From NCBI GenBank assembly GCA_021603905.1, contig BQIU01000003.1:1-64000 (forward strand): a stretch of DNA of 64,000 nucleotides, read 5' to 3'. Positions 10,606 through 60,304 of the stretch are shown here, one piece after another. The translations under genes were made by a program, and so were the position numbers. The notes under the pieces were generated by a model. The model had not been told where the DNA came from, ran no database searches, and worked only from the letters and a program-made list of their open reading frames with translations. The stretch's first letter is position 1; each line of letters opens with the position of its first letter. This stretch comes from Nitrospirales bacterium (GTDB lineage: Bacteria; Nitrospirota; Nitrospiria; Nitrospirales; UBA8639).

Positions 10606-11565
10606 ATGATTGTTCCTAATAGACATATGCCAGACATGTGCATACTCAAACATCTTTTCGCTATACATCTGGACCGAAACACTCATCGAGGGCGATGGGT
10701 CAGACTCATGCTCTGCTGCAGTATCAGCTTGCTCCTCACTTCCAGCTTTGCCTTTTCTTCCGACGTACGCCCCGCACTCCAACCACATCTGAAAGGGATT
10801 GCGTCATTTGCCAAACCATCACCAATGGTGTCGATCCCAGCTGGTCCATTTCTTATGGGAACCGAACGGCGTGATGCCGATGCGTTCCATGTCGATACAC
10901 AGTACGATGACACCGAATTTCCACAACGTCGTATTTGGATTAAGGCATTTGACATTGATCAATATGAAGTGACACTCGGAGAATTCCTCGCGTTTCATCA
11001 ACAGCACAACCACATGGTCTCTGACGAATTGCAAGAATTGATCTGGCACTTGATTGACGTTCATTTCATTCCAGACGAAGTTTTGGCACCATGGCCAGCC
11101 TTGTACGTCACCTGGGAAGAAGCTTCGGCATTTTGTCAAGCTCAGGGGAAACGGTTACCAACCGAAGCCGAATGGGAAAAAGCCGCACGAGGGTTGGAAG
11201 GACGAGCCTTTCCCTGGGGACAAGACCCACCAACTGAGACTCTTGTGGTCTTCGGACAATATCATATGCATCAAATTCCACTGGTCGCCGCAGTCGATAG
11301 CTATCCCGAAGGACAGAGTGTCTTTGGGGTGTATCATATGGCCGGGAACGTCGCCGAATGGGTAGAGGATTGGTTCGGATCGGACTACTATCCCATCATG
11401 CCGGATCGAAACCCGACCGGCCCTAAGAGTGGTCGCTACAAAAGCGTGCGTGGCGGGTCATGGAAAAGTAAGGTTGTGATGCTCAGGACTGCTACGCGAG
11501 GTGGCGCCTTTCCGCAACAGCGTGAGGCCACCATCGGATTTCGTTGTGCAAAAACGCACCCGTAG
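10606..11565 (+). CDS. Formylglycine-generating-enzyme-like (SUMF1 family) secreted protein
   Basis: This 319-residue protein has a hydrophobic export signal (LMLCCSISLLLTSSFAF) preceded by ~34 residues. The true start may therefore be the ATG near 10708 rather than 10606. The rest is the FGE-sulfatase fold: MVSIPAGPFLMGT, FDIDQYEVTLGEFLAF, VTWEEASAFCQAQGKRLPTEAEWEKAARG, MAGNVAEWVEDW, VRGGSWKS and a closing IGFRCA. In true FGEs a Cys pair oxidises a sulfatase Cys or Ser; I do not see that pair, so enzyme activity is doubtful. Many proteins of this fold in environmental bacteria have other or unknown roles. No sulfatase gene is nearby. Confidence 0.85.
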   Translation: MIVPNRHMPDMCILKHLFAIHLDRNTHRGRWVRLMLCCSISLLLTSSFAFSSDVRPALQPHLKGIASFAKPSPMVSIPAGPFLMGTERRDADAFHVDTQYDDTEFPQRRIWIKAFDIDQYEVTLGEFLAFHQQHNHMVSDELQELIWHLIDVHFIPDEVLAPWPALYVTWEEASAFCQAQGKRLPTEAEWEKAARGLEGRAFPWGQDPPTETLVVFGQYHMHQIPLVAAVDSYPEGQSVFGVYHMAGNVAEWVEDWFGSDYYPIMPDRNPTGPKSGRYKSVRGGSWKSKVVMLRTATRGGAFPQQREATIGFRCAKTHP

Positions 11566-11571
11566 TTCGTA

Positions 11572-11695
11572 TCTTGTCATTCGTTGCTCGCATCTCGTTA
11601 GACACTCGTCTCATTGCCTGTTCCGCGATACGCTTCACGCTTGCGCGCCGGAGCGCTACAGTGCGCAGGCACGAACGACGAGATGCGATTTCATT
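11572..11695. repeat. Palindromic element, copy 1 (REP/MITE-like)
   Basis: The ends are inverted: TCGCATCTCGT at 11588-11598 and its exact complement at 11678-11688. The inner 46 bases (11634-11679, GC-rich, containing TTGCGCGCCGGAGCGCT) match the copy at 41857-41902 at 43 positions. No open frame lies inside. The form suggests a non-autonomous mobile repeat. A related sequence lies inside the kinase gene at 57701-57784. Confidence 0.7.
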
Positions 11696-11721: not shown

Positions 11722-12483
11722 TCAGTCAGAACCTTTAGGTTCTTTACAAGCGACAGGACCACTCTCGGGCATCGCGAGTGTGGATGCGGACAGAGGATGG
11801 GAAGAGGAGGACGTCTCGATGACTCCATCTTTAACTCTGATCAATTTTTCGGTCCTCTCGGCAATGTCAGGTTCATGGGTGACCAGGACAATCGTAGCAC
11901 CGGATTGATGCAACTGCGTGAAGAGATCCATGACTTCATCCGAAGTTTTCGTATCCAGATTGCCAGTCGGTTCATCGGCCAGAATCACTTTGGGGTTTGT
12001 AATCAGGGCTCGAGCGATTGCCACACGTTGACGCTCTCCTCCCGATAACTCATTCGGGAAATGATCGGCACGATGGTCTAGCCCCACTCGTTCCAAGTAC
12101 TCTCGGGCTCGGTCTTGACGAAGAGCCCGTGGAACCCCTTGATAGGACAACGGCAATACGATATTTTCCAGTGCCGTTTTAAACGGCAATAAATGGAATG
12201 ATTGAAATACAAATCCTAAGAGTGTGTTGCGATAGATGGTGGCTTGCGATTGCGAAAGATCTTTGATCGGTGTTCCCGCTAACGTGTAGAGGCCAGAATC
12301 ATAATGATCAAAGATCCCTATAATATTCAGCAGGGTGGATTTCCCTGATCCTGAAGGACCCATGATGGAAACAAACTCACCCTGCGCAATGGTAAGATCA
12401 ATACCTCGCAAAACGGGAACCACACTTGAGTGGTCCTTATATGCTTTGCTCACCTGTTGAAGCTGTATCATCGGTTCGCTCAT
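11722..12483 (-). CDS. ABC transporter ATP-binding protein, MacB/LolD type
   Basis: This 253-residue nucleotide-binding subunit has Walker [11 protein letters not shown]-loop [18 protein letters not shown], signature LSGGERQR, Walker [13 protein letters not shown] and the switch His in VTHEPD. The DEPTGNLD form and the LLPxxTALEN segment place it in the MacB/LolD group. That group powers mechanotransmission by FtsX-like permeases, not transport through the membrane. The likely partners are the permease at 23519 and fusion protein at 22379, about 10 kb away on the same strand, with receptor unit A between. The last ~30 residues exceed the usual length. Their DNA near 11704-11748 resembles the 3' end of the methyltransferase gene at 41123. 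Confidence 0.9.
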
Positions 12484-41807: not shown

Positions 41808-41903
41808 TGTCGCTCGCATCTCGTGAAAGACTGTGTAGCCTTTCGACGAGATACGGTTCACGCTTGCGCGCCGGAGCGCTGCAGCGCGCAGGCACGAGCG
41901 ACA
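41808..41903. repeat. Palindromic element, copy 2 (REP/MITE-like)
   Basis: TGTCGCTCG (41808-41816) and its exact complement (41895-41903) mark the ends. The inner 46 bases (41857-41902) match copy 1 at 43 positions, with differences that keep the GC-rich palindrome. It sits between the methyltransferase start and the DsrE-like gene end. Confidence 0.7.
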
Positions 41904-47330: not shown

Positions 47331-47405
47331 CGTGAAGCGTCCTTCTTGTCTCGCAAGAATCCTTTTTGTATTGATACGGAATACGAGATACGCTTCACGA
47401 GAAAC
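47331..47405. repeat. Degenerate repeat before the alcohol dehydrogenase gene
   Basis: CGTGAAGCGT and ACGAGATACGCTTCACGAG belong to the same family of GTGAAGCGT-like sequences found after the receptors. It lies just before the gene start and gives a misleading upstream extension of the reading frame. Confidence 0.4.
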
Positions 47406-47412
47406 GAACCTT

Positions 47413-57535: not shown

Positions 57536-60304
57536 TTAAACACCAGCTTTCTGCAGTTGCGTTTTCGGTAACCACTTCATGACCATATTCGCTAATTCTT
57601 GAAAATTGATTGGCTTTGTCACATAATCATCCATTCCAGCAGCAAGACACTTATCACGATCACCTTGCATCGCATTGGCCGTCATCGCAATAATTGGCAC
57701 GCCCTGCGTGCCGCGTTGCTCGACGCTCATCTCTCGTATCTCGTCTGACGCTTCACGTTTCACGTTTAACGCCTCGCGCGCGCGAATTGCCTTCGTCGCT
57801 TCATAACCATCCATTTCCGGCATCTGACAGTCCATCAAGACCAGGGTATAGGGCACTCGTGATACGGCTTCGACAGCTTCGTGTCCATTCCCCACGACAT
57901 CAGTCCGATATCCCAAACGCTCTAACATCATGACGGCAAGTTGCTGATTCACACGATGATCATCAGCCACGAGAATCCTCACGGCACCTCGAACGATCGC
58001 GTCTGTCGATTTTTTTGAATCGGCAAATGGGACGAGCACAGACTCAGGCTCTTCCTGTTGATAGCCCATGACCGTGGCCAAAGAGTCATGGAGTACTTGC
58101 TTACGAATGGGTTTGGTCACATAGCCGTCGAACCCAGCATCACGAGAGGCAATACCATCATCTCGTTGTCCCATAGAAGTCAACAGGAGCAAACGCACAG
58201 ACCTGATGGATGGATTGGCCTTGATGGTCCGTGCGAAGGTCAAACCATCCATTTCAGACACCTTCATCCCTACGATCGCGAGATCGAATGGATCGTTCTC
58301 CCGTTCTGCCTCCTGCAGAACACTCAATGCATCCGTCGATGTTTCGACCGTCACACACTGTATTCCCCATTCTTCGGCATATTTCGCCAAAAGGTCACGA
58401 CTGCCTCGATGTTCATCGATGATACACAGACGAAGCTTTTGAAATTCGACTTGGTGAGAAAGAGCCGCTTGTTCTGGTTGGGTCTCAAGTTGGATCGTCA
58501 TCCAAAACGTACTTCCCTCATTCAGAATACTCTCAACTCCAATCTCACCGTTCATCCGCTCGATAAGCTGTTTGCTGATAGCAAGACCAAGGCCTGTCCC
58601 CCCGTATTTCCGTGTGGTCGAACTATCCGCCTGACTAAATGAAGTAAAGAGTTTGGCTTTGCCCTCAGGACTGATGCCGATTCCTGTATCCGATACTTCT
58701 ATACGAAGGACGACAAATTCTGTCGTTTTTTGAAGAAGCTGAACCTGCAATGAAACTTCTCCCTGTTCAGTAAACTTAATGGCATTGCCAATCAGATTCA
58801 GCAAAATTTGGCGCAGACGACCAGGATCTCCACGAAGATCAACAGGAACATTCGCAGAAACATGCCCAAAGAGTTCCAGGTTCTTTTCTGCCGCTTTGCT
58901 TGAGACTAATTCCAACGTTTCTTCAATGGACGTTCGAAGGTTGAAATCGATCGTTTCTAATTCAAGCTTCCCGGCTTCAATCTTCGAAAAATCAAGAATG
59001 TCATTGATAATCGTCAACAATGCTTCACCAGAACTCCGCACGGTGTCAGCCAGATGATGTTGTTGAGAAGTGAGCGCTGTCTCAAGTAACAGTCCTGTCA
59101 TACCAATAACCCCATTCATCGGAGTTCTGATCTCATGGCTCATGGTCGCAAGAAATTCACTCTTCGCTCTCACGGCGGCTTCCGCCCGGTCCATGGCCTC
59201 AAGAAGTTCGAGTTCGCTACATTTGCGTTTCGTAATATCAATAGAATACACACGAATGGCTTCAAAATCTGGCATATAGGTAATTTCTTGCTCATAGATG
59301 ACATGATCCATGTAGATTTCGCGAACATATGACTGTTGCTGACCTGACTTCAATTTCCCAATAATTGATGGCAAGTCATGAATCAGTGGATGTGTCTCTG
59401 CATCATGACTCTGCTCTTCAAAAATGGTTCGCGCAGCAGGATTCATGTACCGCATGTGCCCATCGCCATTCACTTCGATGATAGGATTGGGATTGCTTTC
59501 AGGAAATGAAGCCAAGCGCCGTAGCTGGGCTTCTCCTTCCAACTTAGCCTTCACGGCCTGTTGAGCTTCCTCTCGTGCTCTCTTCAGTTCCTGTACTTGG
59601 GAAGAGATCTTCTGTGACAAGACCATAGCCACACACAGAAAGATGAAGACTCCCATTCCTCCAAGGCTCAGCACTTCGTTCCATCTGTTGGCTAAGGACT
59701 CCTCAACATTGTCAAAGAGGCGATCAACTTCCTCCTGAATGAGAGCATGAATCTTTGCTTGAGATTGATAGATATCTTCAAAGACAACGTCTATCTTATC
59801 TTTGAGCATTGCACGTTCCTGAAGCAGACGTAACAGATGCTCGCGACGATCTGCTTGGACAGCATTTTGATATTCAACTTCCCATTTATCTGCTAGGACG
59901 ACAAAGGCCTTAAGATCTGCAGACACGGCTTCTAACCCAAGCAACGTGTTCCGAAATTCAGGCTGTTGACTGGCCTGAGATTGCACTCGAAGAAAACCCT
60001 GCAGTTTGTCAATGGCATCGACCTTCCCATTCTTTATATCTTGAATATCGAACAGTGAGATCATTTGTATTCGCACGTCTGTCAAATGTTTCTGAATGTT
60101 CTCCCTGGATCCATGTAAGGCATTCTCTTGGGCTTTCACTTGCGTTCGAGCATCTTTCACTTGCCCAAGCGCAAAGTGAATCAAGCTCACAGCATAAAGA
60201 CCAAACGCAAAAGCCAACCCCACGAGTACCCACACCATCAAGTGAATTCGATATTCATCTTTCAAAACGTTCATAACGTGCTGCATCCTGAATTCACAAC
60301 CCAA
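57536..60304 (-). CDS. Hybrid sensor histidine kinase with two receivers
   Basis: This 922-residue sensor begins with a membrane helix (~23-47). A periplasmic helical region (~48-213) is followed by a second helix ([17 protein letters not shown]). A PAS domain (~265-360) precedes the kinase core: His390 in [21 protein letters not shown] box [17 protein letters not shown] and [10 protein letters not shown]. Receiver 1 (~624-748) keeps the acidic pair (Asp630/Glu631) and Lys731 but has Gly679 where the phospho-acceptor Asp should be. Receiver 2 (~776-910) is complete: Asp781/782, Asp825 in [10 protein letters not shown], Lys897. Residues ~841-868 form an unusually long loop encoded by repeat-like DNA. 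The architecture resembles BarA-type sensors without an Hpt domain. Confidence 0.92.
57701..57784 (-). repeat. Repeat-like DNA inside the kinase gene, in frame
   Basis: GTTGCTCG (57715-57722), CATCTC, ACGCTTCACG (57748-57757) and a GCGCGCGCG end occur in the same order as in the palindromic element at 11572. The TTCACGTTTCACG type repeats also resemble those after the receptors. It encodes a charged loop of ~27 residues between alpha-3 and beta-4 of receiver 2, where ~8-14 are usual. Confidence 0.6.

Follow-up and report, generated by a model that had tools for sequence, protein, structure and literature searches.

Seven-base word arrays, a hairpin core and its inserts in a probable family of nested palindromic repeats of Nitrospirales

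MITEs of DDE insertion sequences are non-coding, carry terminal inverted repeats and short flanking direct repeats, and have unoccupied orthologous sites; IS200/IS605 insertion is duplication-free, and the STRR of cyanobacteria are heptanucleotide repeats. Seven-base units also make up the TAACTGA arrays described in Beggiatoaceae (PMC4679880), and two seven-base motifs build the P6b hairpin stem of the Nostoc tRNA-Leu intron (PMC4476775). RAYT genes are described in PMC2817692 as always flanked by two inverted REPs, while the passages of PMC3733652 on CGTC-tagged repeats present these as seemingly without a dedicated transposase. The same source names RPE-4 and RPE-6 among the Rickettsia palindromic elements.

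The repeats described here were examined from a window of 64,000 nucleotides, the whole stretch of DNA analysed, which is part of contig C3 of the genome G000 (4.74 Mb in 203 contigs, 90.8% complete, 7.5% contamination). G001 to G004 are relatives of G000, and C followed by a number is a contig of G000. No description of this repeat family was found in the open-access literature, subscription papers lying mostly outside the scope of the search, and little work on such repeats was found there for the phylum of the nitrite oxidisers and their relatives.

Anatomy and distribution of the element

The window holds two composite elements and further word arrays, located as follows.

11568 to 11688, plus strand: copy 1, composite element between convergent genes (an FGE-sulfatase-domain ORF ending at 11565 and an ABC ATPase ORF at 11722-12483 on the minus strand)
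11568 to 11598, minus strand: left word array of copy 1, CGTATCT TGTCATT CGTTGCT CGCATCT CGT, containing the 11-bp inverted end 11588-11598
11640 to 11669, plus strand: core of copy 1, a 30-bp hairpin module with TTCACG before it (11634-11639) and CACG after it (11670-11673)
11670 to 11688, plus strand: right word array of copy 1, CACGAACGACGAGATGCGA, containing the 11-bp inverted end 11678-11688
41808 to 41903, plus strand: copy 2, composite element with 9-bp inverted ends, a same-site ortholog in G003 and a core-less word remnant in G004
41863 to 41892, plus strand: core of copy 2, a 30-bp hairpin module with TTCACG before it (41857-41862) and CACG after it (41893-41896); the G003 version is 22 bp
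47383 to 47407, plus strand: trace of a word array without a core, ACGAGATACGCTTCACGAGAAACGA
57713 to 57775, no strand assigned: in-gene word arrays in the hybrid histidine kinase ORF 57536-60304 (minus strand), read in frame, in a receiver-domain loop

As the preliminary description had it, the two copies share a GC-rich core (best ungapped 46-mer, 43 of 46 positions, 11634 against 41857) and have exact inverted ends, of 11 bp in copy 1 (TCGCATCTCGT, 11588-11598 pairing with 11678-11688) and of 9 bp in copy 2 (TGTCGCTCG, 41808-41816 pairing with 41895-41903). The ends do differ between the copies, as it noted, but both are words of one seven-base lexicon; it had recognised the palindromic elements but not their seven-base grammar or nesting, and its boundaries are refined here, the start of copy 1 lying at about 11568, three bases past the stop codon at 11565, and the shared core being a separable 30-bp module. 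Its statement that no transposase lies beside either copy was borne out, the neighbours being an FGE-sulfatase-domain protein and an ABC ATPase at copy 1 and a methyltransferase and a DsrE-like protein at copy 2.

The match between the two copies (E 4e-18) is not due to chance, since 18 more stretches of the genome match at E <= 1e-3, giving 20 for the copy 1 query with itself and copy 2 included, some of these stretches being fragments of a single element. With copy 2 as the query, 34 stretches match at E <= 1, some of which are likewise pieces of a single element. Instead of two copies only and no empty sites, there are thus many copies, together with orthologous sites in relatives that are free of the element or of its core, in agreement with the earlier view of a dispersed, mobile-looking, non-autonomous element.

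The grammar of the arrays was surveyed in 231,864 bases of G000, regions around elements that were mostly picked for holding them. Triples of ACG triplets occur at a spacing of 7 at 215 sites, compared with 0-3 sites at spacings 4-6 and 8-12; word arrays number 114 against 1 after shuffling, and array pairs within 150 bp are convergent in 26 cases and divergent in 1. An unbiased genome-wide count gives 126 matches to the ACGARNNACGARNNACG pattern and 3 to its reverse. AGATACG (67), CTTCACG (44), AGCGACG (43) and AGCAACG (32) are the commonest words, with AACGACG (28), AAATACG (25), ATTCACG (12) and TTTCACG (9) among the others. The arms pair via the invariant ACG/CGT, and mirrored words are identical in 6 of 106 cases, fewer than the 12.6 expected (P 0.022), so that template switching that perfects palindromes is not favoured. 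Matching of words between the two arms, which agree less than expected, was ruled out.

The core occurs in G000 in length classes of 12 bp (2 copies), 22 bp (2), 30 bp (6), 63 bp (6) and 71 bp (6), the 12- and 22-bp cores resembling internal deletions of the 30-bp core. Lengths in relatives are mostly 22 and 30 bp, 12-nt matches there being left uncounted as mostly fragments of longer cores. MITE-type terminal inverted repeats, C[T/C]TGCGCGC and GCGCGCAGG, bound most of the 22 cores, although these same ends served to detect them. Among the 20 cores detected by their own ends, without flanks, in the G000 stretches surveyed, TTCACG stands upstream in 16 and CACG downstream in 16, the context being imperfect on the left in 4 and on the right in 4; the two 12-bp cores are excluded from these counts, since the pattern that found them takes in the flanks.

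The longer classes carry inserts in the core loop: 63-bp cores consist of the core and a 33-bp hairpin module and 71-bp cores of the core and a 41-bp module, at different loop points, and both modules occur together, as a 104-bp core, in G003 and G004, a 110-bp relative being present in G004. By inspection, GTAG occurs on one strand of both inserts, close to a hairpin, a feature shared with REPs that is insufficient alone to call them REPs. A search for an autonomous copy between half cores returned half-core matches at two loci, which turned out to be 104-bp cores carrying the two inserts. A conserved RNA or DNA structure was also considered and rejected, because the strong folding of the 104-bp core in G003 (z -6.7) is not matched in G004 (z +0.4).

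Within the named genome collection the core pattern matched seven stretches, all in Nitrospirae or Nitrospirales MAGs, and a 106-nt consensus of the element matched at E <= 1e-3 in 5 of the 40 genomes searched, which were G000 and relatives; the five are G000 itself, two from its genus and two from a second genus in the family. The ACGARNNACGARNNACG pattern is patchy over 117 genomes of the order, with at least 20 matches in 19 and few in most others; G000 has 126, G003 157, G091 131 and G060 117, and the reversed control never exceeds 4. G028 and G031, of another family, have 19 and 17 word matches and no element match. Viral contigs gave no match to two exact patterns, and Rfam gave none at four loci bearing copies.

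Several further observations were made on the arrays. Their abundance is uneven between species of one genus (2 matches in G001, 15 in G002 and 157 in G003). In two hybrid histidine kinases, encoded by the window ORF 57536-60304 and at C3:122090-122120, arrays enter receiver-domain loops in frame (e.g. SDETRETSDEIRGT) and can therefore add peptide sequence to signalling proteins; a G003 relative has a different loop sequence. The 33-kb contig C48 is unusually array-dense (112 motif matches against 6.2 shuffled) and is syntenic in four relatives of the same genus. A second dispersed repeat, about 125-140 bp long, lies on the same contig (G000:C48:26747-26889); it is unlike the word elements in sequence and has dozens of copies in G001, G003 and G004.

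Variation at orthologous sites

Site surveys took in 8 of the 15 listed core sites, compared without G001, and 15 of the 23 listed array sites. Five sites have a core in G000 and words only in a relative. At C48:19349 the G004 sequence continues in heptad register without the core, and at C36 G004 reads CCCTTCACGAGCGACG where G000 has CTTCACG-core-CACGAGCGTCG; at C104 (against G003) and C25 (against both G004 and G003) the words run uninterrupted in the relatives, and at C21 words replace the core in G003 after allowing for an inversion. At the site of copy 2 (41808), the element is present in G003 too, its core there measuring 22 bp, while the core-less G004 sequence, a word-spacer-word remnant, is degraded and hence not a clean empty site. 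Inserts vary in the same manner, the 33-bp module at C37 in G000 being missing from two copies in G004 whose sequence matches otherwise. The whole element is missing at C78 in G004 and G002 and at C48:32475 in G004, and no clean target duplication for the whole element was found at sites of whole-element absence. At the site of copy 1, G003 has about 500 bp of unrelated DNA.

One locus, C21, is a clear inversion: the whole element (160 bp) is inverted between the same two flanks, with a reverse score of 187 over 148 bp against G004. The reverse score against G003 is 89, the maximum among 1690 non-orthologous reverse comparisons being 112. The C21 spacer has no second occurrence in the 232 kb of G000 sequence surveyed; the locus is only about 630 bp away from the end of its contig, and the opposite orientations are known only between assemblies. 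When elements alone were compared in 40 of 42 ortholog pairs (in the other two the element was not found in the relative), forward homology reached P <= 0.05 in 17 and reverse homology in one, C21 against G003. This test clipped the G004 element at C21 to 17 nt, so that the evidence for that pair is the reverse score of 187. A second inversion, at C48:25029 against G004, was suggested by eye and scores only 25. Inversions at C95 (reverse score 66, under the 99th percentile of 68) and C48:29764 (49) were not accepted.

Explanation and its alternatives

The observed anatomy and copy number, the presence and absence of cores, inserts and whole elements, and the single in-place inversion probably belong to one Nitrospirales family of palindromic repeats that are non-autonomous and nested, with word arrays, core and inserts as the three levels. 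On the first level, two convergent arrays of words ending in ACG, about nine of them common, form a palindrome whose A/T-rich spacer measures about 20-60 bp; this element is mostly intergenic, its words turning over fast. On the second, a GC-rich hairpin core of 30 bp, whose terminal repeats are imperfect (C[T/C]TGCGCGC...GCGCGCAGG), would enter an array after a TTCACG word; CACG repeats flank it, as expected of a MITE that prefers a certain target and duplicates 4 bp on insertion. On the third, hairpin modules of 33 and 41 bp occupy two fixed positions in the loop of the core and would be gained or lost as units. A putative enzyme supplied in trans may transpose the core, slippage and recombination at the palindrome may change the words, and exchange between the inverted arrays may flip the element. 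A more ambitious version, which we consider distinctly unlikely, makes the convergent arrays the recognition arrays of an undescribed DNA-rearranging system, in which the ACG every 7 bp would position an enzyme responsible for flipping the element, for placing the core precisely after TTCACG words and for keeping the words of the arms different, such that no long perfect palindrome arises.

The presence of cores at sites where relatives have words alone indicates that core and arrays are separate units, and because core-less words stand at the orthologous sites, the core probably behaves like a MITE that prefers one target and leaves a 4-bp duplication. The main rival is that core and inserts are ancestral and are being lost by slippage between the CACG or the internal GCGCGC direct repeats, apparent insertions then being losses in relatives. 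The CACG repeats flanking the core are consistent with such loss, as are the 12- and 22-bp cores, and shortening of this kind is seen at 41808 (in G003) and at C48:31717 (in G000 compared with G003). At C25, however, both G004 and G003 are without the core and have their words intact, which makes a gain in G000 the simpler reading; G028 and G031 have words without an element match, and core sequence is uniform whereas the words differ. Ancestral presence followed by loss is therefore unlikely, and gain of the core with a 4-bp duplication is the preferred reading over loss between CACG repeats. Host-selected regulatory or terminator hairpins, placed at gene borders and spread through gene conversion, would agree with the position of copy 1 directly after a stop codon and with folding relative to shuffles in copy 2 (z -3.0) and in two core-less elements (z -3.0 each). 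Copy 1 reaches only z -1.8 and the isolated core z +0.8, however, and presence and absence change quickly, Rfam gives no match, C48:32475 lies by inspection between two start codons, and copies occur inside coding sequence, leaving this origin improbable. It is equally doubtful that a site-specific invertase or a similar enzyme acts on the arrays, which would make the element an invertible switch between adjacent genes: the convergent arrays, the invariant ACG every 7 bp, the non-random lexicon, the inversion at C21 relative to two relatives and the weak candidate at C48:25029 point that way, but only one case is strong, and small hairpin-flanked inversions are common in chloroplasts, where they are reported in PMC9887819 as tied to hairpin structure.

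The preliminary description had favoured REPs moved by a transposase encoded elsewhere, for example a RAYT. G000 has nine Y1-transposase (Y1_Tnp) loci, and six intact Y1 transposases match the NCBIfam RAYT model best, two of them above the cut-off; the GTAG of the 33- and 41-bp inserts would also suit REP or REPIN elements. None of the nine loci, however, carries the element, the core or the GTAG-bearing inserts in its flanks, as examined by a motif scan, a GTAG-hairpin scan within 500 bp and BLAST with a working positive control, in flanks of up to about 1.5 kb, some loci lying near contig ends. The CACG flanks of the core resemble a target duplication, unlike IS200/IS605 insertion, and are unexpected for a Y1 transposase. 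Although REPs occur in many phyla (PMC3733652), movement by a RAYT thus found no support and has little probability here. No enzyme linked to the element was found among the Y1 loci, the family covered by the transposase search; given that CGTC-tagged repeats seemingly have no transposase of their own in the account of PMC3733652, an unlinked mover would not be unique to this family. In two of the Y1 transposases, L010 and L012, the C-terminal region matches DnaA models.

Comparison with described repeats

The element offers a compact bacterial case of repeat nesting three deep, its grammar consisting of an invariant ACG at intervals of seven bases and a limited set of words. Because this grammar is clear, the nested element prefers one word and close relatives supply natural before/after pairs, the origin, targeting, loss and flipping of REP- and MITE-like repeats become directly testable.

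Like MITEs, the core has terminal inverted repeats, flanking direct repeats and no coding capacity, and the core-less arrays at five sites in relatives may be its unoccupied orthologous sites. Unlike them, it is only 30 bp long and strongly prefers a word of another repeat family, and a parent insertion sequence was not found in a search of Y1 transposases only. The arrays within kinase genes recall the Rickettsia palindromic elements, palindromes tolerated in frame within genes; by inspection, however, the sequences are unrelated, and only two in-gene copies were seen here, both in receiver-domain loops. With the TAACTGA, P6b and STRR repeats the arrays share a period of seven, degenerate motifs and tandem units, the P6b motifs also forming a hairpin stem. 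They differ from what is described of those repeats in a lexicon of about nine words, in convergent arrays at many dispersed sites and in a nested hairpin that comes and goes, and words such as AGATACG differ from TAACTGA by inspection.

The inversion at C21 resembles the small hairpin-associated inversions reported for chloroplasts (PMC9887819), where DNA bounded by short inverted repeats has opposite orientations in closely related genomes, although here the host is a bacterium and what has flipped is a composite repeat. As described for REPs, BIMEs and REPINs (PMC2817692, PMC3733652; see also PMC3116915), the element is short, dispersed, mostly intergenic, palindromic and modular, and a REP-like high copy number and dispersal are found (22 cores in the surveyed stretches and 126 word-array matches genome-wide). 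REPs have a GTAG or CGTC tetranucleotide as a head beside an imperfect hairpin; in the present element GTAG was noted in the inserts by inspection. In contrast to the REPs and REPINs of these accounts, its arms are arrays of seven-base words, its core is flanked by CACG and nested at several levels at a fixed word, and no RAYT flanked by the element was found among the nine Y1 loci. The element is filed here with short palindromic repeats of the MITE kind rather than with the REPs of RAYT systems.
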